Shown: positions 35,451 through 61,996 of the stretch, in pieces
Layout of the letters: each line of letters begins with the position of its first letter
Position numbering within the stretch: position 1 is the first letter of the stretch
IMG/VR virus record: IMGVR_UViG_3300008452_005740
Span: 1-61,996 of that record
Length of the DNA: 61,996 bases
Reading direction: 5' to 3' (one strand)
From: a virus
Notes under the pieces: generated by a model
What the model was told of the DNA's origin: nothing
The model's input: only the letters and a program-made list of their open reading frames with translations
Databases searched by the model: none
Made by a program: the position numbers and the translations under genes

Positions 35451-38400
35451 ATGGCCAGAATATATTCACAAGCTGCACAAACAGCAGCTTCAGGATCCCC
35501 TCTAACTGCATACAGTAGTCGTACTTCCGTAAGTGTTAGTGTTACGGCGGGTAAACGCTATGCGATATTCTGGTCAGCAATAATGAGTCATAGTGCGTTA
35601 ACTTCTCGTGCGCGCGTTCGACTACAAAACGTTACTAATGGAGTAACATTACAGCAATTTGAATTTGAACCACAAGACTTAACGGACAGAATGAGTGCAG
35701 TGGATGTAAACGTATTTACTGCTTCATCTACTACAACAATTGAATTTGCTATACAATGGAGTGCATCCGCCGGTACTGCTACCATTTCTGACGCGTATAT
35801 TAATGTGTTAGAATTAGATGATGCTGACGTTTCTTCATATGATAGCACACAAATTGCTACAACAAATGCCGTAGCTACTCCAATAGATTCTATTAATATT
35901 CCTGCTGGCGAATGGTTTGTGTTTGGATCGTGTAACGTCAATACTCCACGAACGGCACAAGCAGCGGATGATATGGTTGTACAATTGTCTGACGGCACAA
36001 ACACCTATATGGTACGAACACAGTATTATGCAAAAGATACATTAGGAATAACACCATATTTTGCAATCGTAACGGCTTCTCTTGGTGCAACAACAACGTT
36101 TTCACTAGAACATAGCTCACCAAACGGACAAAATATTGTCAATCAATATCGAACATTATTAGCATTAGACAGGTCTAAATTTGCAGAAACGTATGCCGCG
36201 GTCAGTGAATCTGCACAAATAGACTCTACAAGTGCCGGTGCACCAACCGCCATAATAACATATACGCCAACTATTGCAAACACAGGCAATCATTTAGTGG
36301 TGGGTACGTGGACGACAAAAATTAGCGCAACTAACTCATCAGTCTTTTCTCACTTTGGTACTTCAACTACGGAACCTGGTCAATATACAGCAACCCGCCA
36401 ACCACTCCGTGAAGCATCCGTTAATAATATTGACGAATTTGCACACGGATGGACGGACGTTGAATCATTAACTGCGGGGTCGATTACAAAAGTCATCGCA
36501 TGGCGTCCAGAAGCAAACGTAAATGCGACAATTTCTGATGCAGCCATTGTTATTATGGATTTGGATGGTGCCGTTGCTGCACCGAGTCCAACGCCAACTA
36601 CAACACCAACACCAACACCAACACCGTCTATTACTGTAACACCATCTATTACCACTACACCAAGTATAACTGTTACCCCTAGTATTACTACAACGCCTAG
36701 TATTACAACAACGCCTAGTATTACCACCACCCCAAGTATTACGCCATCTATTACGACCACACCGTCTATTACTACTACACCGAGTGTTACTACAACGCCG
36801 AGTATTACTAGAACTCCAAGTATTACCACTACGCCTTCTATTACCACTACACCATCTATTACTGTAACACCGTCTATCACAACAACGCCGTCAATTACTA
36901 TTACGCCAAGTATAACACCATCTATTACAGTCACACCATCTATTACCACAACGCCGAGTATTACTACCACGCCGAGTATTACGCCAAGTATTACTACAAC
37001 ACCGTCTATTACTACCACGCCTAGTATTACTACTACCCCAAGTGTCACACCTTCCATTACCACAACACCAAGTATTACGACTACTCCGAGTATTACTACA
37101 ACACCCAGCGTTACTAATACACCGTCTATTACTAGAACTCCAAGTATTACTACTACGCCTTCTATTACCACTACTCCAAGTATTACGACTACCCCAAGTA
37201 TTACTGTAACGCCATCTATTACTAGAACGCCATCTATTACTACAACGCCTAGTATTACTACTACACCAAGTGTCACACCTTCCATTACCACTACACCATC
37301 TATTACCACTACACCATCTATTACTACAACCCCAAGTATTACTACTACCCCAAGTATTACTACTACCCCAAGTATTACTACTACCCCAAGTATCACCACA
37401 ACACCAAGTATTACACCCAGTATTACTACTACACCATCTATTACTACAACGCCAAGTATCACTACCACTCCTAGTGTCACGCCAAGTATTACCGTTACGC
37501 CATCTATTACCACTACACCAAGTATTACTACTACTCCGTCAATTACAACTACTCCGAGTATTACCACAACACCGTCTATTACGGTAACGCCTTCTATTAC
37601 CACTACGCCGTCAATTACCACTACTCCAAGTGTCACGCCATCTATTACCACCACGCCTAGTATTACTACTACACCTAGCGTCACGCCTAGTATTACTACT
37701 ACGCCAAGCGTTACAACTACTCCAAGCGTTACGCCATCAATAACCACTACGCCGAGTATTACTACTACACCATCTGTTACCACTACGCCGAGTATTACTA
37801 CTACCCCAAGTATTACTACTACGCCGTCAATTACTACCACACCAAGTATAACACCATCGGTTACAGTTACACCATCTATTACAGTCACACCATCTATTAC
37901 AACAACACCATCGGTCACTGCTACGCCATCGGTTACCGTTACGCCTTCTATTACTGCTACGCCATCTGTTACTAGAACACCTAGCGTTACACCATCAATA
38001 ACGGTAACACCAAGTATAACAACTACGCCAAGTATTACTACTACGCCAAGTATCACGCCAAGTATTACTACTACACCATCTGTTACTACTACGCCGTCTA
38101 TTACTACTACTCCAAGTATTACGCCGTCGGTTACAATTACGCCAAGTATTACTACAACACCGAGTATCACACCTTCTATTACTACAACACCATCTGTTAC
38201 GGCTACGCCAAGTATTACTACAACGCCATCTATCACCACAACTCCAAGTGTAACAGTTACACCAAGTATTACAGCTTCACCTGGTGTATCTGTAACTCCA
38301 TCAATAACTGTAACTCCATCAATAACCACAACACCTTCTATTACACCAAGTATTACAGTAAGTCCTAGTATTACAGCAACCCCTAGTGTTACTGTAACTC

Positions 38401-40523: not shown

Positions 40524-40528
40524 AATTC

Positions 40529-40563: not shown

Positions 40564-41079
40564 GTGGCTGAGACAAGACTTTCTGGCGCATTAATAAGAA
40601 CTGGAACGAATATCGGACCTGTGAACAAACTATCAGTTGGAGATGTGACCACACCAAGTGGTTCTCTTCATGTTGGCGGTACGACAGTTCTACAACAAAT
40701 ATTAGAAAAAAATACTATTGCTGCGACTGCGGCAACGGGGACAATTAATTTTAATGTATTATCACAAGGGGTGTTGTATTATACAACCAACTCATCGGGT
40801 AATTGGACTCTAAACTTCACAGGTGACATTTCAACTACATTAAATAATATAATGTATATTGGGCAAAGTTTGAGTTTGGCGTTTTTAGTAACAAACGGTT
40901 CTCCCGCATTTTATGTCACATCTCATACAATTGATGGTGCTTCTGTAACACCAAAATGGCAAGGTGGTGCTGTTCCCTCAGCGGGTAACACAAATTGTAT
41001 TGATGTGTATTCGTATGTTATAATAAAAACAGCAAATGCTACATTTACTGTGTTAGCATCAGTAATACCTTTCGTTTAA
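40564..41079 (+). CDS. Beta-rich fibre/structural protein
   Basis: 171 aa from GTG 40564 (GTGAGG upstream). Contains GSLHVGGTTVLQQILEK and a beta-rich domain (GTINFNVLSQGVLYYTTNSS; LAFLVTNGSPAFYVTSH) typical of marine phage structural proteins found beside fibres. It lies between the two giant mucin-like fibres. A role as adaptor or tip is likely but not proven. Confidence 0.75.
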   Translation: MAETRLSGALIRTGTNIGPVNKLSVGDVTTPSGSLHVGGTTVLQQILEKNTIAATAATGTINFNVLSQGVLYYTTNSSGNWTLNFTGDISTTLNNIMYIGQSLSLAFLVTNGSPAFYVTSHTIDGASVTPKWQGGAVPSAGNTNCIDVYSYVIIKTANATFTVLASVIPFV

Positions 41080-41088
41080 TAAGATTGT

Positions 41089-46263: not shown

Positions 46264-46294
46264 CTTGTGTACAGGTTATATAAATGAGGGTTTT

Positions 46295-47614
46295 ATGACT
46301 ACAAAAAAGAAAGTTGTTAAAAAGACTGTAAGAAATCAGAGTATAAAAAAGACTGCTGGACGAGTTAAAAAGAAAGTACCTACTATTTTCGTTCAAATTG
46401 CAGCATACCGTGATCCAGAATTATTACACACTCTTCGCAGTTTATTACAAAACGCAGATCATCCAGAAAATTTGACTATTGCCATTGGTTGGCAGCATTC
46501 TCCCTATGAGAAGTGGGATAATTTAGATGAGTTCAAAGATGACACAAGATTTAAGATAATAGATATAGATTATCGTAAATCTAAAGGTGTTTGCTGGATG
46601 CGTGAAAAAATACAGAAATTGTATAATGGCGAAACTTATACACTACAACTAGATTCACATCATAGATTTACCGAACATTGGGATACGCAAGTAATAGAAA
46701 TGTTAGAAGGATTGCGTAGTAAAGGACACACAAAACCACTGCTGAGTTCATACTTACCAGATTTTAATCCAGTAACAGGACCTGAAGGTGAATTACCTGC
46801 TCCGTGGATTATGGAATTTGACAGATTTGGTCCAGAAGGGCCAGTACACTTCTTACCACATACAATAGACGATTGGAGAGAACTGACATCACCAGTTCCA
46901 TCAAGATTCATGTCTGGTCATTTTATATTTGCTGACGGAATATTTGTTAAAGAAGTTCCGTATGACCCAAATTATTATTTTCACGGTGAAGAAATTGATT
47001 TATCTGTTCGTTCTTATATGGCGGGGTACGATCTATTCGCACCACACAGAACTATTGCTTGGCACGAATACTATAGAGAAGGAAAGAGTAAACATTGGGA
47101 GGACCATACAAATTGGGCATCAGAAGATAGAATCTCACACGCATATCATCGCAAAATGTACGGTATTGAATCGAAGAACAGAAAATTAAAAGATAATGTA
47201 CGAACACTTCAGGAATATGAAATGTATGCTGGATTGGAGTTTTCTACAAAACGTGCTCATACGATGACCATACAAAAAATACGCCCTCCAGTTTCTTTAG
47301 ATGTAGAATCCCATACACAAGGATTGGTTCCTTATCATAAAGTATGTATTGATGTGTATAAAGGATCATTACCAGAGAAGGATTATAATTTCTGGGTAGT
47401 TGCGTTTACAAATAAAGATGGAATAGAATTTCATAGACATGATGCTGATGAAAATGAAATAAATATGGCTATGAGTGTACCTTATGAAGCAGATAAGTTT
47501 GTGCATATATGGAGAGCATTCTATTCTGATCAACCAGCTGATGGGTGGATCGTGTGGCCTCATAGTAAGAGTAATGGGTGGTGTGAAAGATTAACTGGTA
47601 AATTTGGACGATAA
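46295..47614 (+). CDS. GT60-like polypeptide GlcNAc-transferase, copy 1
   Basis: 439 aa from ATG 46295 (GAGGG upstream). A Lys/Arg-rich N-terminus (1-29) precedes a GT-A domain of the Pfam GlcNAc (PF11397, CAZy GT60) type: FVQIAAYRDPELLHTLRSLL, GWQHSPYEKWDN and YTLQLDSHHRF with DSH at 120-122 in place of DxD. Family members (Dictyostelium Gnt1, trypanosome mucin enzymes) start protein O-glycosylation by adding alpha-GlcNAc to hydroxyproline or threonine. A C-terminal domain (FWVVAF, HRHDA, WIVWPHS) is shared with the next gene. Acting on the phage's own Thr-rich fibres is an inference. Confidence 0.85.
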   Translation: MTTKKKVVKKTVRNQSIKKTAGRVKKKVPTIFVQIAAYRDPELLHTLRSLLQNADHPENLTIAIGWQHSPYEKWDNLDEFKDDTRFKIIDIDYRKSKGVCWMREKIQKLYNGETYTLQLDSHHRFTEHWDTQVIEMLEGLRSKGHTKPLLSSYLPDFNPVTGPEGELPAPWIMEFDRFGPEGPVHFLPHTIDDWRELTSPVPSRFMSGHFIFADGIFVKEVPYDPNYYFHGEEIDLSVRSYMAGYDLFAPHRTIAWHEYYREGKSKHWEDHTNWASEDRISHAYHRKMYGIESKNRKLKDNVRTLQEYEMYAGLEFSTKRAHTMTIQKIRPPVSLDVESHTQGLVPYHKVCIDVYKGSLPEKDYNFWVVAFTNKDGIEFHRHDADENEINMAMSVPYEADKFVHIWRAFYSDQPADGWIVWPHSKSNGWCERLTGKFGR

Positions 47615-47615
47615 T

Positions 47616-48857
47616 ATGAGAAAAAATAAAAATATTTTCGTTCAAATTGCAGCATACCGTGATCCAGAATTACTACCCACTATTCGTGATTGTATATCCA
47701 ATGCGAAGAACCCGGAAAATCTTCGATTCTGTATTGCGTGGCAGCATTCTAACGAAGATGTCTGGGACAATTTAGATGAGTTTAAAAACGATTCACGATT
47801 TATAATTCTAGATATTCCACATCTACAGACAAAAGGAACGTGTTGGGCACGGTATCAAATCCAACAACATTGGAACGGAGAAGCATATACCCTACAATTA
47901 GATTCACATCATCGTTTTGCTAAAAATTGGGATAGTATGCTAATTAAGATGGTCAAAGATTTACAAAAAGCAGGATATAAAAAACCATTATTGACTGCAT
48001 ATATGTCAAGTTATGAACCACATAACGATCCCACGGGACGAGCACCAGACCCGTGGTTCTTAACATTTGACAGATTCACTCCAGCTGGAGCAGTATTTTT
48101 TATACCCGCTGTTATTCCTGATTGGAAAAATCGTAAATTACCATATCCAAGTAGATTTTATTCCGCTCATTTTGGATTCACACTTGGACAATTTTGTAAA
48201 GAAGTTCCTCACGATCCGAACTACTTGTTTCACGGTGAGGAAATTTCTATTGCCGCACGAGCGTATACGTGGGGATATGATTTGTTTGCGGCACATAAAC
48301 CTGTAGTGTGGCACGAATATTCACGAAATCACCGCCCTCGTAAATCGTGGGACGACATATCAGATTGGACTAATTGGGATAATCAATCGTTGGCACGTAA
48401 CAGAAGATTGTTAAACGTGGATAACGAGAATGACCCTAATGAAGATTTTGGAGAATTTGGATTTGGTACACAACGTACACTACAGCAGTACGAAGAATAT
48501 GCGGGAATACAATTTTCTACAAGAAGTATACAAAAACATACGTTAGAACATCGTGAACCACCCAACCCGCCAAATCAACCATTCTTTAGAATTTTTAAAC
48601 ATTGTATTGATTTACCATATCAATATGTACCGTATAATGACTATGATTTTTGGGCGGTAGCATTTGAAGATGAATTTGGTAACGAGATATATAGACACGA
48701 TGCTACAGAAGATGATATCATACAAATGAAGAATGATCCTGACGGATATTGTAAATTGTGGAGACAGTTTCACGCAACGGCAAAACCCGCCAGATGGATT
48801 GTTTGGCCACATTCTAAATCACACGGATGGTGTGATCGATTGGTTGGAGATATCTAA
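47616..48857 (+). CDS. GT60-like polypeptide GlcNAc-transferase, copy 2
   Basis: 413 aa from ATG 47616, one base after the previous stop. Same family as copy 1: FVQIAAYRDPELLPTIRDCI, WQHSNEDVWDN, YTLQLDSHHRF (D96), then RFYSAHFGF...FHGEE and the same C-terminal domain (FWAVAF, YRHDA, WIVWPHS, GWCDRL). It lacks the basic N-terminal tail. Tandem duplication with divergence is clear. The two copies may use different acceptors or act in sequence. Confidence 0.85.
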   Translation: MRKNKNIFVQIAAYRDPELLPTIRDCISNAKNPENLRFCIAWQHSNEDVWDNLDEFKNDSRFIILDIPHLQTKGTCWARYQIQQHWNGEAYTLQLDSHHRFAKNWDSMLIKMVKDLQKAGYKKPLLTAYMSSYEPHNDPTGRAPDPWFLTFDRFTPAGAVFFIPAVIPDWKNRKLPYPSRFYSAHFGFTLGQFCKEVPHDPNYLFHGEEISIAARAYTWGYDLFAAHKPVVWHEYSRNHRPRKSWDDISDWTNWDNQSLARNRRLLNVDNENDPNEDFGEFGFGTQRTLQQYEEYAGIQFSTRSIQKHTLEHREPPNPPNQPFFRIFKHCIDLPYQYVPYNDYDFWAVAFEDEFGNEIYRHDATEDDIIQMKNDPDGYCKLWRQFHATAKPARWIVWPHSKSHGWCDRLVGDI

Positions 48858-48858
48858 A

Positions 48859-49819: not shown

Positions 49820-50737
49820 ATGAGAATTTTAGTAACAGGTGGAACTGGGTTGGTTGGAGAAAACTTGAAACAATCTCTTCCTGACGCATATTATGTTTCT
49901 TCAAAGGATTACGATTTAACTAGTTACGAAGATACTGCGGCGTTGTTTTATTACTATCGACCAACGCACGTTATCCATTTAGCTTCTAAAGTAGGTGGCA
50001 TAACGTATAATATGAAATACCCAGTAGAGTTTTTTGAAGATAATGTGTTGATGAACGCAAATGTACTAAACTGTGCTCATAAATTTAAAGTGCAAAACTT
50101 AATTGGAATGTTGTCCACTTGTATATTCCCAGATGATGTGACGTATCCTCTAACGCCTGATAAAATTCATAAGGGTGAACCACATCATAGCAACTTTGGA
50201 TATGCTTATGCAAAACGCATGTTAGAAGTTCAAATACGAACATATAATAAACAATACGGAACAGATTGGACCACGATTATCCCAACAAATATTTATGGCA
50301 AATATGATCAATTTAATCTTGAAAAATCTCATGTAATTCCTGCGTTAATTCATAAGATGTATTTGAATAAAATAAATAATCAACCATTGATGAATATGAT
50401 GGGTACTGGATTGGCAGAACGGGAATTTATATACGCTGAAGATTTAGGGAAAATATTAGCGTGGGCTATAGAAAATTACACAACACCAACACCATTAATA
50501 GTTTCATCAGAAACATCATATAGTATAAAATCGGTAGCAGAGCTAATTTCTAATGCTATAGGTTATGAGGGACAATTACTATTTGACGGAGATGTGTCAA
50601 AAGACGGACAATACAGAAAGCCAAGCGATTCCAATGTGGTTAGAACACTTTGTCCAATAGAATATACTCCTCTAGATGTTGGTATAAAAAATACCGTAGA
50701 GTGGTTTGTAGAAAATTACACTAACTGTAGGAAGTAA
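49820..50737 (+). CDS. fcl: GDP-L-fucose synthase (epimerase/reductase)
   Basis: 305 aa, a typical Fcl/WcaG length. Short-chain dehydrogenase with the NADP+ loop TGGTGLVG (6-13), HLASKVGGI, LSTCIFP with the catalytic Ser/Thr/Cys around 99-101, and YxxxK at Y128-K132 (GYAYAKR). It converts GDP-4-keto-6-deoxymannose to GDP-L-fucose in the cytoplasm. The GT10 fucosyltransferase at 53647 would use the product. No Gmd gene is seen here, so the precursor must come from elsewhere in the phage or from the host. Confidence 0.92.
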   Translation: MRILVTGGTGLVGENLKQSLPDAYYVSSKDYDLTSYEDTAALFYYYRPTHVIHLASKVGGITYNMKYPVEFFEDNVLMNANVLNCAHKFKVQNLIGMLSTCIFPDDVTYPLTPDKIHKGEPHHSNFGYAYAKRMLEVQIRTYNKQYGTDWTTIIPTNIYGKYDQFNLEKSHVIPALIHKMYLNKINNQPLMNMMGTGLAEREFIYAEDLGKILAWAIENYTTPTPLIVSSETSYSIKSVAELISNAIGYEGQLLFDGDVSKDGQYRKPSDSNVVRTLCPIEYTPLDVGIKNTVEWFVENYTNCRK

Positions 50738-50740: not shown

Positions 50741-51538
50741 ATGAAAATACTAGTATCTACTATATGTTTTATTCAACCCAATAAAATTAAGGATGGTGCA
50801 GAGATATATGCAACGTTTGCCAATCGTTTGATAGATTCTACGATGGAAAAAACGAATTTTGATATTCGAGTAGCAACAAACAGACCAGAACTGTTTTCCG
50901 ACGCATTATTAAAATATGGTGACAGAGTTTCTTTATTTGTAGACACGTTGGAAGATAAACAGGTTTGGGTTGGTGCATTCAATCAATTACTAAAATTTTT
51001 AGCACTAAAAGATGTACCATCGAAATACGATTATGTTCTGTATTTAGATTGCGATTCATCATTCTTTAAAACAGTTGATAATGAATTGGTAACAGAAACA
51101 ATTACCAAACTAGAAGAAAACAACCAAAACGGCATGGTAAATAGATCTGGTACGGGATACTTCCTGCAACAGTTAACAGAACATTGTTCAGGCATAGCAA
51201 ATATGTTTAGCGCCAAATTTAATTTTTATAACTTAAACTTGAATACCGTACCACCGGAGTGGGAAGATGCTCCAATGCCATGTGAACACATACTGTTCTT
51301 AAAGAATGAAGATAATAAATTACAGATTATGTCAGATAAAATTGCTGAATTTAATGAAAAATTAGAATCTCAAATTGGACAACCGTACATCGCATGTAGT
51401 CCTGATATGGAAGCATTCGAGTTGGGTATTGGGGTAAAAGTTGCTGGTTATAAATTAGCAGAAATTGATTCATATATTCACCACGATGTATTTTGTGTAA
51501 AATATAACGGTAGTAATTGGGAAAAAGCAAAATTATAA
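50741..51538 (+). CDS. GT-A glycosyltransferase (DCD motif)
   Basis: 265 aa. Residues ~95-105 read YVLYLDCDSSFF, a DxD metal/nucleotide-sugar site of GT-A enzymes. A later acceptor-side HHDVF segment gives a His. Otherwise no close family is recognised. It starts 3 nt after fcl. Confidence 0.7.
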   Translation: MKILVSTICFIQPNKIKDGAEIYATFANRLIDSTMEKTNFDIRVATNRPELFSDALLKYGDRVSLFVDTLEDKQVWVGAFNQLLKFLALKDVPSKYDYVLYLDCDSSFFKTVDNELVTETITKLEENNQNGMVNRSGTGYFLQQLTEHCSGIANMFSAKFNFYNLNLNTVPPEWEDAPMPCEHILFLKNEDNKLQIMSDKIAEFNEKLESQIGQPYIACSPDMEAFELGIGVKVAGYKLAEIDSYIHHDVFCVKYNGSNWEKAKL

Positions 51539-51551: not shown

Positions 51552-52151
51552 ATGTTAAAAACCGATGGAAATGATTATTATGTAATCAAGGATGCATGTG
51601 TTGCTGTAAAGGAAATTGAAGGTTTGGTATGTGAATTAGGATCGTATCAAGGTGGTGGACTCAAATTACTTATGGAAACATTTTCGGAAATGAATCAACG
51701 AGATAGAATATTTCTTTCGGTTGATCCATACGGAGACATTCCATATCACGATATAAATGGTATACACAGTGCGGGATATACAAATAATGTAAAAAATATG
51801 TTTCTACGAGACATACATCAATTGTCTTATGAATTGAATACATACTTTTTGTTTTTCAATATGACAGACACACAGTTTTTCAAAAGATTTTCTGATGGTA
51901 TTCCTGTATACATTAACGAAGAACGTATTTATAACAAATATGCGTTAGTAATTATTGACGGACCACATGAAGTGAATATCGTTAAGGATGAATTTGATTT
52001 CTTTAAAAGTAGAATAGCTACAAATGGTATAATAGTTTTTGATGATGTTGAACAGTACCCACATGAAACTATTCACGAATATATTTTGCAGAATGGATTT
52101 GAAACGTTCAAATCCACAGGATATAAGCACGCATATAAAAAAGTTGTATGA
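51552..52151 (+). CDS. TylF-like methyltransferase
   Basis: 199 aa. Motif I VCELGSYQGGGLKLL, then FLSVDPYGDIPYHD, and LVIIDGPHEVNIVKDEFDFF and IIVFDDVEQYPHE, the DD-containing metal site of the TylF/MacrocinOMT family. These methylate sugar hydroxyls using SAM and Mg2+. It overlaps the next ATG by 4 nt. Likely methylates a glycan built by this operon. Confidence 0.82.
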   Translation: MLKTDGNDYYVIKDACVAVKEIEGLVCELGSYQGGGLKLLMETFSEMNQRDRIFLSVDPYGDIPYHDINGIHSAGYTNNVKNMFLRDIHQLSYELNTYFLFFNMTDTQFFKRFSDGIPVYINEERIYNKYALVIIDGPHEVNIVKDEFDFFKSRIATNGIIVFDDVEQYPHETIHEYILQNGFETFKSTGYKHAYKKVV

Positions 52152-52972
52152 AAATTGCACTTCTGCTTTCAGGTCAACCACGATTATATGAGGAAGTTTT
52201 TCCACACATAAAAAAACATATATTAGACGTATATGATTGTGATGTATATGCACATGCGTGGTGGGACGAAGCGGAATCACACGATGTAGTACATCGTTCA
52301 CCCTGGTCACAGTCTTATAAGTTTGACGTAGATAAACAATTTCCTATTAAGTTTAATAACTTATACAATCCCAAAAAGTTTCAAATAGATAAACCATTAT
52401 TTGATAGCACGGAAGATTCGCAGAATATTTTCATTGAGTCATTGAAAAAATTGTATCCGACTACAAATGGGTGTGAAGTTTTTTATGAAGATAAAAGTAT
52501 GTTAGGTCCAATTCATAAATTTATTTCAATCGAAAAAGTATTTAATATGGTGAATTGGGATGAAAATTATGATTGGATTGTTTTCTGGAGATATGATTTA
52601 CAGCCAGATGTATTTCCCGATTTAACTATCTTAAATGAAGAAGTATTATACGCATATACCGATTATTGGTGTTCTTGGTGTGATAGAGATGATAGAGCGT
52701 GGCCAGATAATCATGGATTTATAGATACTGGATTTATACTACATCCTAATTGTAAACATGCTTTAAATATTAAAAATTTTTACTTTGATGAGTGTATGAA
52801 AAATAATTTATTGTGTAGTGAATCACACAAATGGAAGCACAAACCAATTCCAGAAACAGTCTGGTCGTTGAACGTGTGGTACAATAAAATAAAAACAGTT
52901 ATGTTACCATCTAAAGACTTTTCAGCAAGTTTAATTCGACGAATTGATGAGTACGGAGACTTAAGACCATGA
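52148..52972 (+). CDS. Putative glycosyltransferase (LLLSGQPR family)
   Basis: 274 aa. The N-terminus IALLLSGQPRLYEEVFPHIK then DVYDCDVYAHAWWD is the mark of a sugar-transferase-like family common in phages, algal viruses and marine bacteria. FWRYDLQPDVFPDL gives an acidic candidate for donor binding, with a Trp/His-rich centre (YTDYWCSWCDRDDRAW). Donor and linkage unknown. It overlaps the next gene by 4 nt. Confidence 0.7.
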   Translation: MKIALLLSGQPRLYEEVFPHIKKHILDVYDCDVYAHAWWDEAESHDVVHRSPWSQSYKFDVDKQFPIKFNNLYNPKKFQIDKPLFDSTEDSQNIFIESLKKLYPTTNGCEVFYEDKSMLGPIHKFISIEKVFNMVNWDENYDWIVFWRYDLQPDVFPDLTILNEEVLYAYTDYWCSWCDRDDRAWPDNHGFIDTGFILHPNCKHALNIKNFYFDECMKNNLLCSESHKWKHKPIPETVWSLNVWYNKIKTVMLPSKDFSASLIRRIDEYGDLRP

Positions 52973-53643
52973 ACGAACAATATATATTTTTTGATGTAGG
53001 AGCAAATAATGGTGATAGTTCTGTGCCAATTATACGCAAAAATCCAGATGCTAGAGTATATGCATTTGAACCTGTTCCTGCTTTAGTGAATTACATAAAA
53101 CAACAAACAAAAGATTATCCTAACTATGTTGTAACACAAACTGCTGTTTCTGATTTTAATGGAACGGCATCATTTCGTATATCAGGCGAACCATCAAAAA
53201 AAGAAATTCAAACATTTGTAGATTTAGACTTTCATAAATTCGTGGAACATAATTGGCATGGATGTAGTTCTTTACTAGAATTGTCGGATAATGTATTGGA
53301 TTCTTGGTACGGAAGAACGGATATGTTAGTTCTGGAAGAAATAGAAGTTAATGTCATTAGATTGGATTCTTTTATACAACAAAATAACATAGACCATATT
53401 GATTTTCTTTGGGTAGATACACAAGGATCAGATTTAAATGTATTGAAAGGTTTGGGAGACTACATTCATATAGTAAATTCTGGAACGGTAGAAGCTGCAA
53501 ACAAACCAGACATTTTATATAAAAATCAAAATTCTAAAGAAGAAACAATTGAGTATTTAAAACAATGTGGATTTAACGATATACGAGTGTCCACGAATGA
53601 CCCAGCAGATAATGAAGTAAATATTTCTTTTTATAGAGGATAA
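52969..53643 (+). CDS. FkbM-family methyltransferase
   Basis: 224 aa. FFDVGANNGDSSVPI (motif I), VYAFEPVPALVNYI, TAVSDFNGTASF, and the FkbM signature IDFLWVDTQGSDLNVLKGL. These SAM enzymes O-methylate sugars or glycan termini. It lies directly before the fucosyltransferase, so 2- or 3-O-methyl fucose is a speculative product. Confidence 0.88.
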   Translation: MNEQYIFFDVGANNGDSSVPIIRKNPDARVYAFEPVPALVNYIKQQTKDYPNYVVTQTAVSDFNGTASFRISGEPSKKEIQTFVDLDFHKFVEHNWHGCSSLLELSDNVLDSWYGRTDMLVLEEIEVNVIRLDSFIQQNNIDHIDFLWVDTQGSDLNVLKGLGDYIHIVNSGTVEAANKPDILYKNQNSKEETIEYLKQCGFNDIRVSTNDPADNEVNISFYRG

Positions 53644-53646: not shown

Positions 53647-54528
53647 GTGAAAATTAAATTTCTTCCAAACTGGTGTTCTTCTGAACAAGGTACAAAACGA
53701 TTATTTGACCAATTTTATATAGGACAAGATTTAACAAATGTAGAATTTGTTCACGGTGATGAATTTGACGTTATTTTTTATTGCGGATATGAAACGCAAG
53801 TCGTACCGTCTGGAATAAAAAAATATATTTTTAATATGGAACCGTGTTGGTCGGGAAACGTACAAAGAAACAATTCGGGTATTGATGCTACAATCTTCGC
53901 TCAAGATAAAAACATATTTGATGATTCGACTAGAGTAGTTGAGTGTCCAACCTATATGTTCTACGGAGCTGGTGGCGAAAATTGGACTGTAGAAGATACC
54001 AAAATTGATTACGAAAAAACAAAAAATATCAGTTGTATATTGTCGGATAAAAGAAACATTTACAATATATCTTCATGTCTATACGATAAACGAGATGATG
54101 TAGCTCAATACTTGATGCGTTCGAGTGTATCGGTAGATGTATTCAGAGATTGTGATTCTCCAAATTGCGTTGGTGGACTCCCAAGAAAAATTGAAGGATT
54201 AAAACCATATCGATTTAGTATTGGTATAGAAAACAGTAGAGAACAAAACTACATTTCAGAAAAATTTTATGATGCAATTTTAACAAACACCATCCCAATA
54301 TACTACGGTGCAAAAAATATCAAAGAGGTTTTTCCTGAAAATGGGTATTTTGTAATAGATGATTTAGAAGATTTAGATGGCATTGCCAACCTACTAAAAC
54401 ATATAAACGAAAACGCAGAAGAACTTTATCGACAAATGTTACCAGAAGCACTAAAAATTAAACAGAGATTTTTTAATGAATTTAATCTCATGACAAAAAT
54501 TATAGAAGTAGCGGAGAGTGGTATATGA
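53647..54528 (+). CDS. Alpha-1,3-fucosyltransferase-like (GT10)
   Basis: 293 aa from GTG 53647. Residues ~190-225 contain the GT10 motif YRFSIGIENSREQNYISEKF then YDAILTNTIPIYYG, which binds GDP-fucose (conserved ENS...EK...P-Y-G). The N-terminal half has the acceptor-domain pattern (FNMEPCWSG...). It transfers L-fucose to GlcNAc-containing acceptors in known members. It fits GlcNAc initiation by the GT60 pair and the fcl product. It overlaps the next ATG by 4 nt. Confidence 0.9.
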   Translation: MKIKFLPNWCSSEQGTKRLFDQFYIGQDLTNVEFVHGDEFDVIFYCGYETQVVPSGIKKYIFNMEPCWSGNVQRNNSGIDATIFAQDKNIFDDSTRVVECPTYMFYGAGGENWTVEDTKIDYEKTKNISCILSDKRNIYNISSCLYDKRDDVAQYLMRSSVSVDVFRDCDSPNCVGGLPRKIEGLKPYRFSIGIENSREQNYISEKFYDAILTNTIPIYYGAKNIKEVFPENGYFVIDDLEDLDGIANLLKHINENAEELYRQMLPEALKIKQRFFNEFNLMTKIIEVAESGI

Positions 54529-55529
54529 AAACTATAGGATTTTGGGATAACAATCTAGGATTGCGTGGTACTAGTGTTGCTATGTTTCTTTATGCAAAAT
54601 ATAACGAAGAAATTTTAGGAAATCGTAGTGTCATATATTCACACAGTGCTGTTAGAGAAGATATAGGGGATAAGTCTACACTAGATAAATTCGAAAAACA
54701 GTTTCCAGGTCGTGTACATCTAGTCGGTAGAGAATTGGGTGGATTGTACGATGTTCAGACGCATATGTTGAGAGAATATAACGCTGAATATTTTTATTAT
54801 ATTAAAGCCGGACAACGTGATGGTGGTATGTTAGATGAAAATTATATCAAAAATTTAATACACGCAGTATTTTTGTTTAATGAACCACACGGACATCGAT
54901 ATATGTATGTGTCTGATTGGTTGGCTGGGACGATGGGATATTCACCTAGAGAAAATCACGCGGTACCTCATATCGTTGAACCGTTGCCTGTAGTTGACGA
55001 AGATTTAAGAGATGAGCTAGGTATACCAAAAACAGCGACGGTGTTTGGGTGTTATGGTGGTCCAACTGAATTTAATATTGATTTTGTACATATGGTGATG
55101 GATAGAGTCTTGTCAGAACGTAATGACATTTATTTTATTTTTATGAATATACCAAGTACTCATCGTGGTATAACACACACGCATGAAAATTATAGATGGT
55201 TGCCTGGTACGTGGGATTTAACTCGAAAGGCTAAGTTTGTTAAAACATGCGATGCTATGTTACACGCCAGAGGAGGTGGAGAAACGTTCGGAATGGCTGT
55301 GGCAGAATTTAGTAGCGCAAATAAACCTGTAATAACATACGGATTATCGGGAGAACGATGTCATCTGGAAATTTTAGGAGACAAGGGATTAATTTATAAC
55401 AGTTATGAAGAGCTTTATGACATTATTAATAACCTTGGTACATATTTAAAGTATGAGGATTGGAACTGCTACAGAAATTTCTCCGCAGAAATTATAATGG
55501 ACAGATTCAATAAAAACTTTTTAAATTGA
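54525..55529 (+). CDS. GT4-like glycosyltransferase
   Basis: 334 aa. The C-terminal half holds the retaining GT-B pattern CDAMLHARGGGETFGMAVAE then FSSANKPVITYGLSGE, in which EtFGma.AE binds the nucleotide-sugar phosphate. The N-terminal half carries GFWDNNLGLRGTSVAMFLYA. Probably adds a further sugar. Donor not predictable. Confidence 0.82.
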   Translation: MKTIGFWDNNLGLRGTSVAMFLYAKYNEEILGNRSVIYSHSAVREDIGDKSTLDKFEKQFPGRVHLVGRELGGLYDVQTHMLREYNAEYFYYIKAGQRDGGMLDENYIKNLIHAVFLFNEPHGHRYMYVSDWLAGTMGYSPRENHAVPHIVEPLPVVDEDLRDELGIPKTATVFGCYGGPTEFNIDFVHMVMDRVLSERNDIYFIFMNIPSTHRGITHTHENYRWLPGTWDLTRKAKFVKTCDAMLHARGGGETFGMAVAEFSSANKPVITYGLSGERCHLEILGDKGLIYNSYEELYDIINNLGTYLKYEDWNCYRNFSAEIIMDRFNKNFLN

Positions 55530-55539: not shown

Positions 55540-56364
55540 ATGACAAAGGTTATCGTAACAATGACAACGTTACCTCGAAGATTATTTGAGGTTGATTCTG
55601 AATGGGGAATTCGTCCGTCTTTAAAGACGATATTAGAACAATCAAACGCTGACTACGAAGTACATTTAAATGTTCCATACGAACACAGAGGTCAGCAAAT
55701 AACAGTTCCCGATTGGTTAAGAGAATGGCAATCAACATACAAACATTTAAAAGTGTTTAGATGTAAAGATTACGGTCCAATAACAAAGATATATCCTACA
55801 CTAAAACGTGTAACTGATCCGAATACTATTCTTATAACGGTAGACGATGATCTTGCATATAACGATGGATTTGTCCAAGCTCACATAGACGCTCAAACGA
55901 AGTATAAAGAATGTGCCATAGGATATGCTGGAATGGGTTCTATTAATGAATCACTTCCGGCTGACAATAGAGGCGTTCATCCAACCGGTGGACAACATTT
56001 CGTTACATCGTTAGCGGAAGATATAAGAGTGAGAATGTTAGAGGGATATAAAACTGTGTCTTATTTAAGATCATTTTTTTCTGAAGATTTAAAGGATTTA
56101 GAAAACTTTATGGCACAACATTGGAATGATGATATTGTGTTGTCTGCTTATATGGGATATAAAAATATAAAAAAGATAGTGTTGAAGTGTGAAAATTGTA
56201 ATGGAGACAATTCACCACGCGTAGAAACATTCCCAGTAATAAGAATGGTTCCTATTACGTCCGATATTCACGGTTGTAATGCATTTAGAACCAATCAATC
56301 TATTCAAAAAAATATGGAAGATGTGAGTAATATGTGGTATAAACTTGGATATCTGGAGAGATAA
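55540..56364 (+). CDS. GT-A glycosyltransferase with DDD motif
   Basis: 274 aa. N-terminal KVIVTMTTLPRR then WGIRPSLKTILEQSNADYEV and the metal site ILITVDDDLAY (around residue 100). HWNDDIVLSAYM near residue 200 is a GT-A acceptor-side motif. Similar proteins occur in glycan clusters of marine bacteria. Donor and acceptor unknown. Confidence 0.72.
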   Translation: MTKVIVTMTTLPRRLFEVDSEWGIRPSLKTILEQSNADYEVHLNVPYEHRGQQITVPDWLREWQSTYKHLKVFRCKDYGPITKIYPTLKRVTDPNTILITVDDDLAYNDGFVQAHIDAQTKYKECAIGYAGMGSINESLPADNRGVHPTGGQHFVTSLAEDIRVRMLEGYKTVSYLRSFFSEDLKDLENFMAQHWNDDIVLSAYMGYKNIKKIVLKCENCNGDNSPRVETFPVIRMVPITSDIHGCNAFRTNQSIQKNMEDVSNMWYKLGYLER

Positions 56365-56367
56365 AAT

Positions 56368-57108
56368 ATGTCTAATATTATTGAAGCATTAAATGTATAC
56401 AATGTGTTTTCACCTAAAATGCGTTTGGGTGATAACAGAGATGGTGGTTATATAATTAACGAAACAATTGCAGAAGTTTCAAATAAACTTATTACTGTTG
56501 GATTGGGTTCTGATTACTCTTTTGAAAGAGATTGGTACAATAAATTCAAGACTCCAATTGAAGTATATGACGGAACGTGTTCTTGTGGCGGTCTGTGTCA
56601 CGAATTTAAAGATAATATCAATAAAGATATTTTCTTTATAAAGAATAACGTGGGATATGATGAGGGTAATATGCCGATAAACGTATTACTAGATAGAAAA
56701 TCAGATATTCTGTTGAAAGTTGACGCAGAAGGATCTGAATACACTATGTTTGATAATGTTAAATTGGGTTCAAATATTGCAGGATTTATCCTAGAAGTAC
56801 ACGATATACACGTTAGAGAGCATCAAGAAAAACTAATCAGTTTGATTGAAAATCAATTTTCTGATCTTTTGTTGTTTCATATTCACGGTAATTCTTGGGG
56901 AAACACCTTTACATTAAATTTGAGTAAAACGGGAAATCGTGGTTTGGAAATACAAAATTTTCCACATGTACTCGAATTATCTTTCGTAAACAAAAGACTG
57001 CTTGGTAATTTTGAGTTAGAAACGACATCATTCCCAATTCAAGGATTAGACTACAGTAATCACCCAGATAAACAAGATATTCAACTTCCGTGGATAAACG
57101 CATTATAA
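56368..57108 (+). CDS. FkbM-like methyltransferase, second type
   Basis: 246 aa. MRLGDNRDGGYIINE then ITVGLGSDYSFERDWYNKF as the cofactor region and ILLKVDAEGSEYTMFDNV as the FkbM-type signature, with EVHDIHVREHQ near the active site. Probably a sugar O-methyltransferase acting on the same glycan as its operon neighbours. Confidence 0.75.
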   Translation: MSNIIEALNVYNVFSPKMRLGDNRDGGYIINETIAEVSNKLITVGLGSDYSFERDWYNKFKTPIEVYDGTCSCGGLCHEFKDNINKDIFFIKNNVGYDEGNMPINVLLDRKSDILLKVDAEGSEYTMFDNVKLGSNIAGFILEVHDIHVREHQEKLISLIENQFSDLLLFHIHGNSWGNTFTLNLSKTGNRGLEIQNFPHVLELSFVNKRLLGNFELETTSFPIQGLDYSNHPDKQDIQLPWINAL

Positions 57109-57120
57109 TAAAGGTATTTT

Positions 57121-58977
57121 ATGATAAACTTAAAGGATATATTACAGACTTTATCTGAAGATGGTAAATCTTTCGTTATAAATCTCGGAGATAAAGTTTT
57201 ACGATTCACGATAGACGAGATTCCTAAAACTGAGCAAGAATCTTCACAACAAGTAGACAATACTGTTGAAGAATTCAAAACTTTAGAAAATTCTGATACG
57301 ACCATAGTAACCGCTCTTTGGAATTTAGGTAGAGGGTCACTCGGTGATGATTTTAAACGTCCGTATTCTTATTATCTTGACAAATTTGCAGAGTTACTCA
57401 AAACTCCTTCAAATTTATACATTTATGTAGCAAAAGAAGATGAAGAATTTGTTTGGAAGCATAGATCAAGAAAAAATACTCATGTCAAAGTTATGGAGTT
57501 AGAAGAACTAAAAACTTGGTTTCCCTTCTACGAAAAAGTACAAGAAATTAGAAATACTGAAAATTGGAAGAAACAGGCAGCATGGTTAGAAAACTCTCCA
57601 CAAGCAAATTTAGAGTTTTATAATCCGGTAGTTATGAGCAAGATGTTTTTACTGAACGATGCATCAATCAGTAATCCATTTAATACAAATTATTTTTATT
57701 GGTTAGATGCAGGCATCTCCACGACAGTACATCCAGGATATTTTCATCACGATGTCGTTTTAGAAAATCTACCAAAATTAACCGAAGAAGTTGATGCGTT
57801 TATATTCTTATCATATCCGTATGAGGATGGATATGAAGTTCATGGCTTTCCACGTACTGATATTGAAAGATATGCCAAAACACAACATTTAAAATATGTG
57901 TGTCGTGGTGGATTTTTTGGTGGTTCCAAAACTTCAATAGCAACGGCAAATAGTAATTATTATAATCTTTTACGACAAACCCTAGAAAGTAATTTTATGG
58001 GTACGGAAGAAAGTATATTTGCTGTAATGGCACATCTATATCCAGAAACAATATATAGATTTGAACTTTCAGGCGACGGTTTGGTATGGCCGTTTTTTGA
58101 AAAATTAAAGGACGTAGACGAACTTATAAAAAATTTACCGCCGAAAGAACTAACACCAAAAACTGCTAAAGTAAATCTGTATGTTCTTGGATTTAATTCT
58201 ACAGAACAATTTGAATCTGTCGTGAAGTCCATACAATCGGCTGATGACACTATGTTTACACGATGTAGAAAAATATTAGTAAATAACTCTACGGATACTA
58301 GTTTATTTGAACAATACGATAAGTTATGTGAACTGTATGGGTTCGAGGAAATTCATAGAGAGAATTTAGGTGTATGTGGTGGTAGACAATTTATAGCAGA
58401 ACATTTTAGCGAATCCGACGCTGATTTTTATATGTTTTTTGAAGACGATATGCATATTAACAACGAGTCTTTTATTGGTAAGAACTGTAGAAATGGATTT
58501 AGATCACATATACCAAACTTATATGAAAAGCTCGTTAAAATTATGGTAAAAGAAAAATTTGATTTCTTTAAAATGTCTTTTTCCGAATTTTACGGTGATA
58601 ATAGTGTGCAGTGGGCTTGGTATAATGTACCACAATCAGTTAGAAATGAAGTTTGGCCTAACTATAATAAGTTACCTGAACACGGAACTGATCCAAATGC
58701 TCCAAAAACTGTTTTTGATACAATTCACATTGTGGATGAAACTCCTTATATTAAAGGGCAGATTTATTACAGTAATTGGCCACAAATAGTCAGTAAAGAA
58801 GGTAATCAAAAAATGTTTTTAAACACAAAGTGGGCTAGACCATACGAACAAACATGGATGAGTCATATATTCCAACAAACCAGAAAAAACGAATTAACTA
58901 GTGGAATTTTCCTTGCGTCACCTATAGAACACAATAGATTTAATTTTTATCAGAGTGAATTGAGGAAGGAATCCTAA
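57121..58977 (+). CDS. Bifunctional HtrL/YibB-like and GT2-like protein
   Basis: 618 aa. Residues 1-55 are a leader starting MINLKDILQTLSED, which resembles the (I/L)xE-bearing starts of head-cluster proteins. Residues ~60-320 fit the HtrL/YibB family: TIVTALWNLGRG...SYYLDKFAELLKTPSNLYIY and YFYWLDAGIS. Residues ~340-600 look like a GT2 domain: VNLYVLGFNSTEQFESVVKS, NLGVCGGRQFIAEHF, FYMFFEDDMHI with DD as metal site. It is the last gene of the glycosylation operon; two transfer steps on one chain are plausible. Confidence 0.75.
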   Translation: MINLKDILQTLSEDGKSFVINLGDKVLRFTIDEIPKTEQESSQQVDNTVEEFKTLENSDTTIVTALWNLGRGSLGDDFKRPYSYYLDKFAELLKTPSNLYIYVAKEDEEFVWKHRSRKNTHVKVMELEELKTWFPFYEKVQEIRNTENWKKQAAWLENSPQANLEFYNPVVMSKMFLLNDASISNPFNTNYFYWLDAGISTTVHPGYFHHDVVLENLPKLTEEVDAFIFLSYPYEDGYEVHGFPRTDIERYAKTQHLKYVCRGGFFGGSKTSIATANSNYYNLLRQTLESNFMGTEESIFAVMAHLYPETIYRFELSGDGLVWPFFEKLKDVDELIKNLPPKELTPKTAKVNLYVLGFNSTEQFESVVKSIQSADDTMFTRCRKILVNNSTDTSLFEQYDKLCELYGFEEIHRENLGVCGGRQFIAEHFSESDADFYMFFEDDMHINNESFIGKNCRNGFRSHIPNLYEKLVKIMVKEKFDFFKMSFSEFYGDNSVQWAWYNVPQSVRNEVWPNYNKLPEHGTDPNAPKTVFDTIHIVDETPYIKGQIYYSNWPQIVSKEGNQKMFLNTKWARPYEQTWMSHIFQQTRKNELTSGIFLASPIEHNRFNFYQSELRKES

Positions 58978-58997
58978 TGTAAAAGACATATAGTTTT

Positions 58998-59006
58998 ATA
59001 TTTATA
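58998..59006 (+). promoter_or_regulatory. ATATTTATA motif, candidate late promoter
   Basis: ATATTTATA, 27 nt before the ATG at 59034, marking the return from glycosylation genes to fibre genes. Confidence 0.43.
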
Positions 59007-59033
59007 CTAGTGTATCTTTAACAACGTGGATTT

Positions 59034-59921: not shown

Positions 59922-59924
59922 ACT

Positions 59925-60173: not shown

Positions 60174-60182
60174 AGTCGGCAT

Positions 60183-60377
60183 ATGAGTATACAATTTATA
60201 CCATTAGGATTACCAATTAGTACTTCTTTCGCAGTTTCGGCAAGTGTAACTATTGCATCGGCAAATACACCTACCACCGCGGCACTTGCCGCTTACGCTG
60301 AAAATTTACTAGGTTTGCCTGGTGACCCGTATAAAGAAGTAGATGCTTCACCAACGTTAATTGTTGTTCCAACATAA
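60183..60377 (+). CDS. Short fibre protein, paralogue of neighbours
   Basis: 64 aa. FIPLGLPISTSFAVSASVTI matches the opening of the adjacent 82-aa and truncated genes (aromatic-P...STSFA.SAS). It ends with GLPGDPYKEVD. No other domain is present, so it may be a minimal fibre-base peptide. Confidence 0.6.
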   Translation: MSIQFIPLGLPISTSFAVSASVTIASANTPTTAALAAYAENLLGLPGDPYKEVDASPTLIVVPT

Positions 60378-60390
60378 TTAGGAGAATTTT

Positions 60391-61996
60391 GTGGCTGTAT
60401 TTTTTCCATTCGGTATTCCTTCTACGGGTTCCTTCGCACAAACAGCTAGTTCTGCTTACGCATTAGTAAACAATCCATCTGTTGTAGCAGCACGTGCGTT
60501 GGTTGGTGTTATAGGACCAAAAGGTACTCCTGGAATTCAAGCTACAAGTTGTCCGCCTGGTTATTATAATGCGTTAACTACGGTCACGGATGCCTATGAC
60601 ACATACCCATCAGTACCGCCGCATTCTGGTAGAGAAAATTATTTTTTATGTTATCCAATTCCCTCTCCATCCATAACCCCAACAAAAACACCGACAGCTA
60701 CCCCGACGATGACAGTAACACCGTCAGTAACAACTACGCCGTCGGTTACCCCAAGTGTAACTGTAACACCTTCTATAACAACTACACCATCAGTTACCAG
60801 AACGCCTTCTATCACTAGAACACCGAGTATCACAACTACGCCGTCTATTACGACCACACCTTCTGTTACTACTACGCCTAGTATTACTAGAACACCATCT
60901 ATTACACCGTCTGTGACAGTAACACCTTCTATCACAACAACACCGTCAATAACGGTTACTCCAACTATAACATCTACACCTTCAATTACACCGTCAATAA
61001 CTGTTACACCAAGTTTAACACGAACACCATCTATTACCACAACACCATCTATTACCACAACACCGTCTATAACTCCAACTAGAACAGTAACTCCATCAAT
61101 AACACAAACAACAAATCAATCTGTAACACCAACGCCTACTCTTACACCTTCTATAACAACTACACCATCAATAACAGCAACTCCATCAATAACAGCAACT
61201 CCATCAATAACGCCGTCGATAACAACTACTAGAACTGTTACCCCAACGGTAACGCCCTCAATAACAACAACCCCATCGGTAACTACGACACCAACTAATA
61301 CACCAACTCCATCGGTAACACCTTCTGCTACCACAATTAATTATGTATTTTGTGAGTGTACTACAGTTCCAAGCTGTAATAATTATCCAGATCCTACTGG
61401 TGGTGGATGTACAGCAGTTGCTGAAGCACTTACTCTCGGAACGTGTTGGCCGTGTACACAAGGAGTAGTAACGCCATCAGTAACACCGAGTGTCACTGCT
61501 ACCCCTTCAATTACTAAAACACCAAGTACTACAGTAACTCCATCAATAACAACTACGCCAAGTATTACGCCAAGTATTACGACAACGCCGTCTATTACCA
61601 CTACACCTTCTATTACTAGAACGCCAAGTATTACCGCTACGCCTTCTATTACTAGAACACCAAGTATTACTCCAAGTATTACCACTACGCCGTCTATTAC
61701 TAGAACACCAAGTATTACTCCAAGTATTACCACTACGCCGTCTATTACTAGAACACCAAGTATTACTAGAACGCCTTCTATTACACCATCTATTACGCCA
61801 AGTATTACTACTACTCCAAGTATTACGCCGTCTGCAACAAAAACGCCTGCGCCCGTAACGCCTTCACCAGTAACACCTTCGCCGGTGACGCCTTCACCGG
61901 TGACGCCTTCGCCGGTGACGCCTTCACCAGTGACGCCTTCACCAGTAACACCTTCGCCAGTGACGCCTTCACCAGTAACACCTTCGCCAGTGACGC
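60391..61996 (+). CDS. Giant Pro/Thr/Ser-rich fibre protein, N-terminal part (3' truncated)
   Basis: 535 codons seen from GTG 60391 (AGGAGA at 60380-60385), open to the window end. Residues 1-90: FFPFGIPSTGSFAQTASS, a Gly-X-Y-like GPKGTPGIQ and a Cys-containing segment. Residues ~91-313 are TPSIT repeats, ~316-358 a six-Cys island (FCEC...CNNY...CWPC), ~359-484 more TPSIT repeats, and from ~488 VTPSP repeats. It has the same plan as the other giant stalks and may be the same gene as the fragment at 1-585 if the genome closes. Confidence 0.8.
   Translation, partial: MAVFFPFGIPSTGSFAQTASSAYALVNNPSVVAARALVGVIGPKGTPGIQATSCPPGYYNALTTVTDAYDTYPSVPPHSGRENYFLCYPIPSPSITPTKTPTATPTMTVTPSVTTTPSVTPSVTVTPSITTTPSVTRTPSITRTPSITTTPSITTTPSVTTTPSITRTPSITPSVTVTPSITTTPSITVTPTITSTPSITPSITVTPSLTRTPSITTTPSITTTPSITPTRTVTPSITQTTNQSVTPTPTLTPSITTTPSITATPSITATPSITPSITTTRTVTPTVTPSITTTPSVTTTPTNTPTPSVTPSATTINYVFCECTTVPSCNNYPDPTGGGCTAVAEALTLGTCWPCTQGVVTPSVTPSVTATPSITKTPSTTVTPSITTTPSITPSITTTPSITTTPSITRTPSITATPSITRTPSITPSITTTPSITRTPSITPSITTTPSITRTPSITRTPSITPSITPSITTTPSITPSATKTPAPVTPSPVTPSPVTPSPVTPSPVTPSPVTPSPVTPSPVTPSPVTPSPVT
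60661..61332 (+). repeat. TPSITT-coding array, part 1
   Basis: Six-residue repeats with more variable swaps than in the big arrays (PTKTPTATPT, PTRTVTPS, QTTNQS), possibly an older or degenerating copy. Confidence 0.82.
61465..61841 (+). repeat. TPSITT-coding array, part 2
   Basis: More regular TPSIT units with R/A/T at the variable position, downstream of the Cys island. Units SITTTPSITRTPSITPS recur with identical DNA over several tens of bases. Confidence 0.85.
61855..61996 (+). repeat. VTPSP-coding 15-nt array at window end
   Basis: About nine VTPSP units, gt(g/a)ac(g/a)ccttc(a/g)cc(a/g), running off the window. It matches the type of array that opens the window at base 1. Confidence 0.9.

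Follow-up and report, generated by a model that had tools for sequence, protein, structure and literature searches.

A 61,996-base stretch of uncultured viral DNA (IMG/VR record IMGVR_UViG_3300008452_005740; below, the window) encodes very large proteins built of Thr-Pro repeats, here called F1 to F4, and, directly behind F2 and before F3, 13 close-packed genes on the same strand (block 1), two of which code for proteins of the glycosyltransferase family GT60. We consider it likely that the phage encodes the O-glycosylation of its own repeat proteins. Five lines point to such a modification of phage-encoded repeat proteins, namely the GT60 family itself, its predicted fold, its association with Thr-Pro arrays in other records, the gene neighbourhood, and the case of one cultured phage. 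A more far-reaching proposal, to which we give about even chances, is that the phage has a full cytoplasmic mucin-type system, in which four GT60 proteins together with fucose, methyl and carbamoyl decoration make four tail bottlebrushes, and that GT60 forms with a nearby Thr-Pro array gene a pair of enzyme and acceptor that is general among large phages and occurs in some bacteria.

The proposed pathway would be cytoplasmic and phage-encoded, and its substrates would be the repeat proteins of the phage itself, which are probably tail appendages. GT60 enzymes would put the first sugar, probably an N-acetylhexosamine (HexNAc), on Thr or Ser, or, less likely, on hydroxylated Pro, in the TPSIT-type arrays of F1-F4. 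The glycan may then be extended and capped by the other glycosyltransferases, by a fucose-type epimerase together with a GT10 enzyme, and by methyltransferases, as well as by O-FucT/HPAT-type domains and carbamoyltransferases encoded beyond the window. The product can be pictured as four stiff bottlebrush stalks covered in sugar, all but one of them ending in a small Cys-rich part. We infer the arrays to be the acceptor and the proteins to be in the virion, and likewise the identities of the sugars and any benefit, such as shielding, reach through host slime, or receptor binding; any part in adsorption, shielding or mimicry is speculative.

Predicted fold and likely acceptor of the GT60 proteins

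The two GT60 proteins of block 1 score 222 and 242 bits against PF11397, the curated cut-off being 21. GT60 is the family of the Trypanosoma cruzi polypeptide alpha-N-acetylglucosaminyltransferase and of Skp1 Gnt1, which transfer N-acetylglucosamine (GlcNAc) to polypeptides (PMC6939170). The second of the two proteins (47604-48857) was modelled with AlphaFold2 from an alignment of 24 relatives, giving a predicted local distance difference test score (pLDDT) of 89.3 and a predicted template modelling score of 0.84. The first 17 rows of a Foldseek search with this model were polypeptide N-acetylgalactosaminyltransferases (polypeptide GalNAc-transferases), and a second look at the Foldseek candidates with VIA placed the same enzymes in the first 29 rows, with Z-scores of 18.8-21.5. 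The best of them (Z 21.5) has a root-mean-square deviation of 3.6 with 278 residues aligned, and the next entry of another kind has Z 16.5; the predicted fold thus matches polypeptide GalNAc-transferases better than other GT-A enzymes. The acceptors of the polypeptide GalNAc-transferases, family GT27, are rich in Thr, Ser and Pro. A D-S-H-H-R-F sequence (residues 100-105) is invariant in the 24 relatives and may be equivalent to the DSH metal site of GT27. Comparison with PDB sequences, by single sequence or by profile, gave nothing usable. Taken together, family and predicted fold make a protein the best guess for the acceptor.

Repeat proteins

A 114,529-base record (the longer record) contains the window without mismatch, as its positions 7499-69494 (offset 7498). 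A circular window, with the third repeat protein running on into positions 1-585, was considered and rejected, because the window is colinear with this record. Positions 1-585 encode the C-terminus of a fourth repeat protein, F4, whose start precedes the window, and F3 ends soon beyond it.

Thr, Ser and Pro together make up 63-68% of the open reading frames (ORFs) at 35451-40523, 41089-45738 and 60391-61995, the last of which is open at the window end. TPS[IV]T occurs 199 times in F1, 196 in F2, 49 in F3 and 68 in F4 (counts from the longer record), and the Ser and Thr residues of all four add up to 2,225; like mucins, the proteins have long Thr/Ser/Pro-rich tandem repeats. At a lag of 6 codons the arrays of F1, F2 and F4 are 0.70-0.74 identical in amino acids. 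In these arrays the third codon position has about twice as many mismatches as either of the other two, and there are more synonymous than non-synonymous codon changes (478:309, 473:295 and 147:122, respectively). Both excesses indicate that the repeat is more than a chance reading frame, and the alternative of chance or low-complexity frames was rejected on the pattern of mismatches; to judge by the codons, the repeats of F1, F2 and F4 are under selection as protein. This analysis replaces an earlier synonymous count, which used units chosen by motif and was hence biased. Long antisense ORFs (36380-39976 and 41076-44846) overlap the arrays of F1 and F2, and we read them as by-products of composition.

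A tail fibre assembly-like gene directly precedes F1 and places it in the tail region, which does not by itself prove presence in the virion. The relatives of the F1 N-terminus come from nine loci, all 99-100% identical.

A Cys-rich C-terminal cap is common to F2, F3 and F4 and is missing from F1 (window positions 465-585 and 45600-45735; near 69774 in the longer record). Its pattern has no match in the other 29 GT60 contigs described below.

Association of GT60 with Thr-Pro arrays

Array counts in this and the following sections were made by a strict rule unless stated otherwise, since looser scans of Thr/Ser/Pro content flagged frame artefacts too. Viral records of at least 20 kb were selected by a Thr-Pro DNA pattern alone, among the 80 listed of 120 stretches (the other 40 were not listed); 50 were used, and four more of this length, beyond the limit of 50, were left out. 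GT60 is encoded in 12 of these 50 and in 1 of 41 controls, which were found with the reversed pattern in 120 stretches and had to reach the same length, a record also present in the array set being left out (Fisher p 0.003; p 0.03 when corrected for sequence length in bases). Eight of the 12 have a mucin-like ORF, by the looser rule, within the 13-20 kb stretch around GT60, and always on the same strand.

The reciprocal selection started from 42 GT60 records, of which 30 were used, twelve near-copies or short records being left out; all 30 are linear, often fragments. A strict array is present in 15, and 32 of the 35 array ORFs in the 30 contigs lie on the GT60 strand. Among GT60 contigs of at least 50 kb, the window's own phage included, 8 of 10 have arrays, compared with three of nine GT60-free relatives found by the major head protein (p 0.055), and array density is higher in the former (p 0.004). 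The arrays of the three GT60-free relatives (contigs of at least 58 kb) are all short, 51-66 residues. Length decided which nine, of a planned 15, were compared; the set excludes a longer record that has a weak GT60 match, and one contig lacks its final 335 bases. Another comparison covered 43 relatives of at least 20 kb out of 80: nine records matched the pattern, among them a further piece of the window's phage, and two of these nine had GT60 above the cut-off; of the 34 without a pattern match, one did. At the level of sequence records, GT60 and Thr-Pro arrays are associated whichever of the two features is used for selection.

Position of array genes at GT60 loci

Of 43 viral GT60 loci, including the window's own, 40 were used (three copies of the same phage were left out) and reduced to 23 by similarity. 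An array gene stands at rank -1 relative to GT60 in 4 of the 23 (p 0.007) and at rank -2 in 5, compared with 5 of 208 genes at least four genes away. Twelve viral loci with no strict array nearby were inspected singly; in three of them (L034, L040 and L042) a Thr/Ser-rich protein of 741-751 amino acids is encoded directly upstream of GT60, and in two others (L005 and L006) Thr/Ser-rich large proteins are found three and four genes upstream. The remaining seven have no Thr/Ser-rich large protein upstream either.

A comparable arrangement is seen in loci from bacterial genomes, of which 51 out of 63 were kept as non-redundant, several of them being metagenome contigs that may be phage: rank -1 is an array gene in 4 of 50, compared with 1 of 356 (p 0.0009), and two of the four are on the opposite strand. 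In six contigs filed as bacterial (L564, L565, L574, L598, L601 and L621, the fifth by the looser rule only), a Thr/Ser/Pro-rich gene adjoins GT60; contigs so filed include Jiulongibacter, Gemmatimonas, Prosthecobacter and Acidobacteria. It is possible that such neighbours are a bacterial version of the pairing.

GT60 in cultured phages

A tblastn search found GT60 in three of 50,697 cultured phage records: XacN1, CM1 and RAS14. Two of the three were scanned for the Thr-Pro pattern, which matches 43 times in XacN1 and 52 times in RAS14, the reversed pattern matching in neither. Five jumbo phages outside this trio, picked for the similarity of their tail sheath, gave no Thr-Pro match. In the 320,000 of 384,670 bases of XacN1 that were scanned, 14 ORFs longer than 200 amino acids pass the strict array rule (two short ORFs in the terminal repeats that also pass are left out), and three of the array ORFs, ORF369, 370 and 372, are near the tail sheath gene, ORF367. 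The GT60 gene is ORF334, with a carbamoyltransferase next to it (ORF333) and an HtrL_YibB gene (ORF330) three genes further; all three kinds of protein are shared with the window's phage. Proteomic analysis of XacN1, with data deposited as PXD008065, reportedly gave at least two glycoproteins, and its authors suggested that phage glycosyltransferases make them (PMC5852040).

Gene complement of the window and its surroundings

The window, which corresponds to the 61,996-base IMG/VR record IMGVR_UViG_3300008339_000054 as well, is part of the genome of a large uncultured contractile-tailed phage, with genes for terminase (4505-6085), portal (11999-13903), major head protein (19917-21509) and tail sheath (24399-26732). 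The coordinates of the repeat proteins and of block 1 are collected in Table 1. The large protein encoded before F1 (30852-35078) has no match in PDB or PHROG.

Table 1. Repeat proteins, block 1 and adjoining genes (positions in the window; aa, amino acids)
Feature	Position	Strand	Matches and remarks
F4, C-terminal part (702 aa whole in longer record)	1..585	+	Cys-rich module and Cys-rich C-terminal cap
Tail fibre assembly / tail assembly chaperone-like protein	35093..35437	+	PF16778 1.2e-21; phrog_4912 tail fiber assembly 7.1e-20; directly precedes F1
F1, 1690 aa	35451..40523	+	Non-repeat N-terminus (~380 aa); TPS[IV]T array; C-terminus of its own
Small phage protein between F1 and F2	40564..41079	+	phrog_5906
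F2, 1549 aa	41089..45738	+	TPS[IV]T array, non-repeat domain, VTPSP stalk, Cys-rich C-terminal cap
GT60 polypeptide HexNAc-transferase-like protein 1	46265..47614	+	PF11397 1.6e-65; phrog_24687 3.2e-142
GT60 polypeptide HexNAc-transferase-like protein 2	47604..48857	+	PF11397 2e-71; model matches polypeptide GalNAc-transferases
Block 1 protein without informative match	48733..49818	+	Profile searches
NAD-dependent epimerase, GDP-L-fucose synthase-like	49820..50737	+	PF01370 6.8e-44; NF047922 209 of 500 bits, below NCBIfam cut-off
Block 1 protein without informative match	50741..51538	+	Profile searches
Methyltransferase, Methyltransf_24	51552..52151	+	PF13578 1.7e-7; TylF match below cut-off
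Phage protein, phrog_13607	52148..52972	+	2.1e-24; function not informative
FkbM-family methyltransferase	52969..53643	+	PF05050 1.5e-22; TIGR01444
GT10 fucosyltransferase-like protein	53647..54528	+	PF00852 4.5e-16
GT4-like glycosyltransferase, below cut-off	54525..55529	+	PF00534 8.6e-5, 22.6 of 26.4 bits
Weak GT2-like protein	55540..56364	+	PF00535 0.015, below cut-off
Weak FkbM-like methyltransferase	56368..57108	+	PF05050 0.0082, below cut-off
HtrL_YibB-family protein	57121..58977	+	PF09612 2.3e-17; C-terminal half with weak glycosyltransferase-like match, phrog_842 0.0047
F3 (668 aa in longer record)	60391..61996	+	Window end cuts inside VTPSP stalk

The original prediction, made from the letters of the window and its translated ORFs, had listed three giant Thr/Ser/Pro-repeat proteins, a repeat-protein tail at 1-585, and 13 glycan genes including two GT60-like transferases, fcl, a GT10 fucosyltransferase and three sugar-type methyltransferases. 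The giant proteins exist, with the composition given above and as more than chance frames, and the GT60 and GT10 assignments hold, all above cut-off. The tail is that of a repeat protein, though of F4 and not of one of the three. Block 1 is at the place described, and seven of its 13 genes (those starting at 46265, 47604, 49820, 51552, 52969, 53647 and 57121) pass the curated Pfam cut-off; two more have matches below it (54525 and 56368), one has a weak GT2 match (55540), and three have none that is informative (48733, 50741 and 52148). The presumed fcl is an epimerase by PF01370 and only fcl-like beyond that; two of the methyltransferases pass the cut-off and the third does not. An HtrL_YibB-like motif was seen in 11 of the 30 GT60 contigs, including L013, L029 and L033, by a simple motif scan.

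Glycan genes do not end with the window and continue in the longer record as a second block (block 2). It encodes an epimerase, a 923-residue protein of three domains (L053:10936-13704, longer record), another GT60 protein, two carbamoyltransferases and a protein with a below-cut-off match to methyltransferases. The 923-residue protein combines HPAT (2.4e-6), O-FucT (4.7e-28) and GT60 (4.2e-31) domains, so that block 2 has two GT60 proteins and the phage four. HPAT, O-FucT and GT60 are families named for protein acceptors. In the phage collection the 923-residue protein has partial matches only, its O-FucT part in Synechococcus phage S-SCSM1 and its GT60 part in XacN1. A 176-residue ORF of the same block (78535-79062 of the longer record, or L053:18535-19062) resembles a 2-oxoglutarate (2OG)-Fe(II) oxygenase by eye.

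Points against the proposal and alternative explanations

Several observations weigh against glycosylation of the repeat proteins by the phage, and its weak links are virion membership, the GT60 contigs without arrays, and the chemistry. F1-F4 are presumably structural, but no family match marks them as virion proteins, the F1 N-terminus has no match in PDB or PHROG, and its model was poor (pLDDT 39) and was not used. Half of the GT60 contigs (15 of 30) have no Thr-Pro array on the available part, eight of the 15 belonging to one group with about 47% identity to the query; an array is likewise absent from the stretch around GT60 in 4 of the 12 array-selected records, and from the fetched stretch in 42 of the 51 loci from bacterial genomes. 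Conversely, short arrays or matches to the pattern are found in some relatives that lack GT60. The tests based on relatives are by themselves weak (2 of 9 compared with 1 of 34; p 0.055 for presence), as is the test of position when viral ranks -1 and +1 are pooled (4 of 46, p 0.059). For XacN1, the passages of PMC5852040 concerned make no connection between the glycoproteins and the array ORFs that were looked for, and tail fibres were not observed by the authors. The original prediction had taken related phages with the operon and no Thr/Ser-rich fibre gene as telling against self-glycosylation: the array-less contigs are in part of this kind, and in part carry a Thr/Ser-rich large protein upstream of GT60. 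On the other side stand the association of GT60 with arrays, the array genes upstream of GT60 in phage loci, the predicted fold and the XacN1 glycoproteins, which leave that reading of the locus in place in a qualified form.

The glycan genes could instead alter a surface polysaccharide of the host, O-antigen or capsule, and so exclude other phages, with the repeat proteins as unrelated neighbours. Large phage clusters with epimerases and several glycosyltransferases have been interpreted in this way for cyanophage (PMC7824862), and block 1 has its share of generic sugar enzymes. We find this improbable, though the least so of the alternatives: the GT60 family and its predicted fold appear protein-directed, O-FucT and HPAT domains are present in block 2, and GT60 tracks Thr-Pro arrays. 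Moreover, a simple hydropathy scan found no membrane-like segment in any of the 26 ORFs in the stretches of both blocks, so that by hydropathy the flippase, polymerase and lipid-linked sugar transferase of a surface-polysaccharide cluster are not there, although host enzymes could substitute for them. Slightly less probable is a mixed use, in which GT60 glycosylates phage proteins, whereas the rest of block 1 serves to decorate the surface of the host or to produce a free sugar compound. XacN1 would fit such a division of labour, as its GT60 gene stands with those for a carbamoyltransferase and HtrL_YibB, and a scan of six further neighbours matched neither GT10 nor FkbM; the arrangement in the window speaks against it, as all 13 genes are close-packed on one strand behind F2 and the block stands between two repeat-protein genes.

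As a variant of the preferred explanation, O-glycosylation of the repeat proteins, the GT60 sugar might be attached to hydroxyproline after the action of a phage prolyl hydroxylase, as in the Skp1 pathway, where Gnt1 is a GT60 enzyme and requires hydroxyproline (PMC6939170). The HPAT domain of block 2 would suit this, as would the 176-residue ORF if its oxygenase-like appearance to the eye were borne out; that ORF, however, matches nothing in Pfam, and nothing convincingly in PDB. A phage prolyl hydroxylase was rejected after PF13640 gave no match in any of the eight GT60 phages searched, and we regard the variant as unlikely, somewhat more so than mixed use. Least probable is that bases of the phage DNA are the substrate of some of the glycosyltransferases. 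A Mom-family DNA modification protein is encoded near the head genes (16978-18450; PF25680, 1.2e-25), the HtrL_YibB-family protein has its weak phrog_842 match, and the 923-residue protein has a below-cut-off TAGT match overlapping its GT60 domain. Mom, however, modifies DNA without sugar transfer, the predicted GT60 fold points to polypeptide acceptors, and no member of the thymidylate synthase/hydroxymethylase family (PF00303) is found in six of six uncultured GT60 records, the 114-kb record included; XacN1 and RAS14 do have one, perhaps an ordinary thymidylate synthase. Host surface modification or DNA modification may account for part of the genes.

Implications and comparison with known systems

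Mucin-type glycosylation is usually regarded as a eukaryotic trait. If our reading is right, the acceptor arrays and the protein-directed transferases would amount to a compact soluble system with which synthetic mucins could be made in bacteria, the Thr-Pro repeat proteins of large phages would be explained, and the view of the virion surfaces, adsorption and recognition of such phages would change. The pairing of GT60 with an array also offers a rule, open to test, by which acceptors can be sought. In the literature searched, outside which most subscription journals lie, no paper was found that connects GT60 of phages with Thr-Pro arrays; PF11397 led only to a brown alga genome, and a query on mucin-like glycosylation of phage virions only to a coronavirus review.

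The statement in the original prediction that no system of this form had been described goes too far, given the suggestion by the XacN1 authors (PMC5852040) and the published glycosylation of mycobacteriophage virions (cited in PMC12619734). Among enzymes, the T. cruzi transferase and Skp1 Gnt1 share the PF11397 domain with the GT60 proteins of the window, which differ in being phage-encoded, in tandem and beside their presumed acceptor genes. The animal polypeptide GalNAc-transferases (GT27), the initiators of mucin-type glycans, have the closest solved fold to the GT60 model; identity is only 12-16% in the first 29 VIA rows, and in the Pfam scan the phage protein matches the GT60 profile and not GT27.

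Among phages, XacN1, a jumbo phage of Xanthomonas citri, is similar in having GT60, a carbamoyltransferase, HtrL_YibB, array ORFs and reported glycoproteins (PMC5852040). It differs in its larger genome, its TPTVT-type arrays, a GT60 gene that is not beside an array gene, and GT60 neighbours in which, as noted, GT10 and FkbM were not matched. The large P-SSM2-type clusters of cyanophages resemble those of the window's phage in their epimerases and glycosyltransferases, and there, too, a second cluster includes carbamoyltransferases; they are interpreted as serving host surface modification or secondary metabolism, and the passage describing them names neither GT60 nor a Thr-Pro array (PMC7824862). 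Mycobacteriophage virion proteins carry sugars, described as a shield (Freeman 2023, cited in PMC12619734), and there the glycans are at the C-termini of capsid and tail tube proteins, with no mucin-like arrays in the passage concerned (PMC12619734). The Chlorella virus PBCV-1 offers a parallel in principle, the virus-encoded glycosylation of its own structural protein, although it is an algal virus and the acceptor is the major capsid protein (cited in PMC5852040). Virus-encoded glycosylation of virion proteins is therefore already known, and what the phage described here would add is its mucin-type form.

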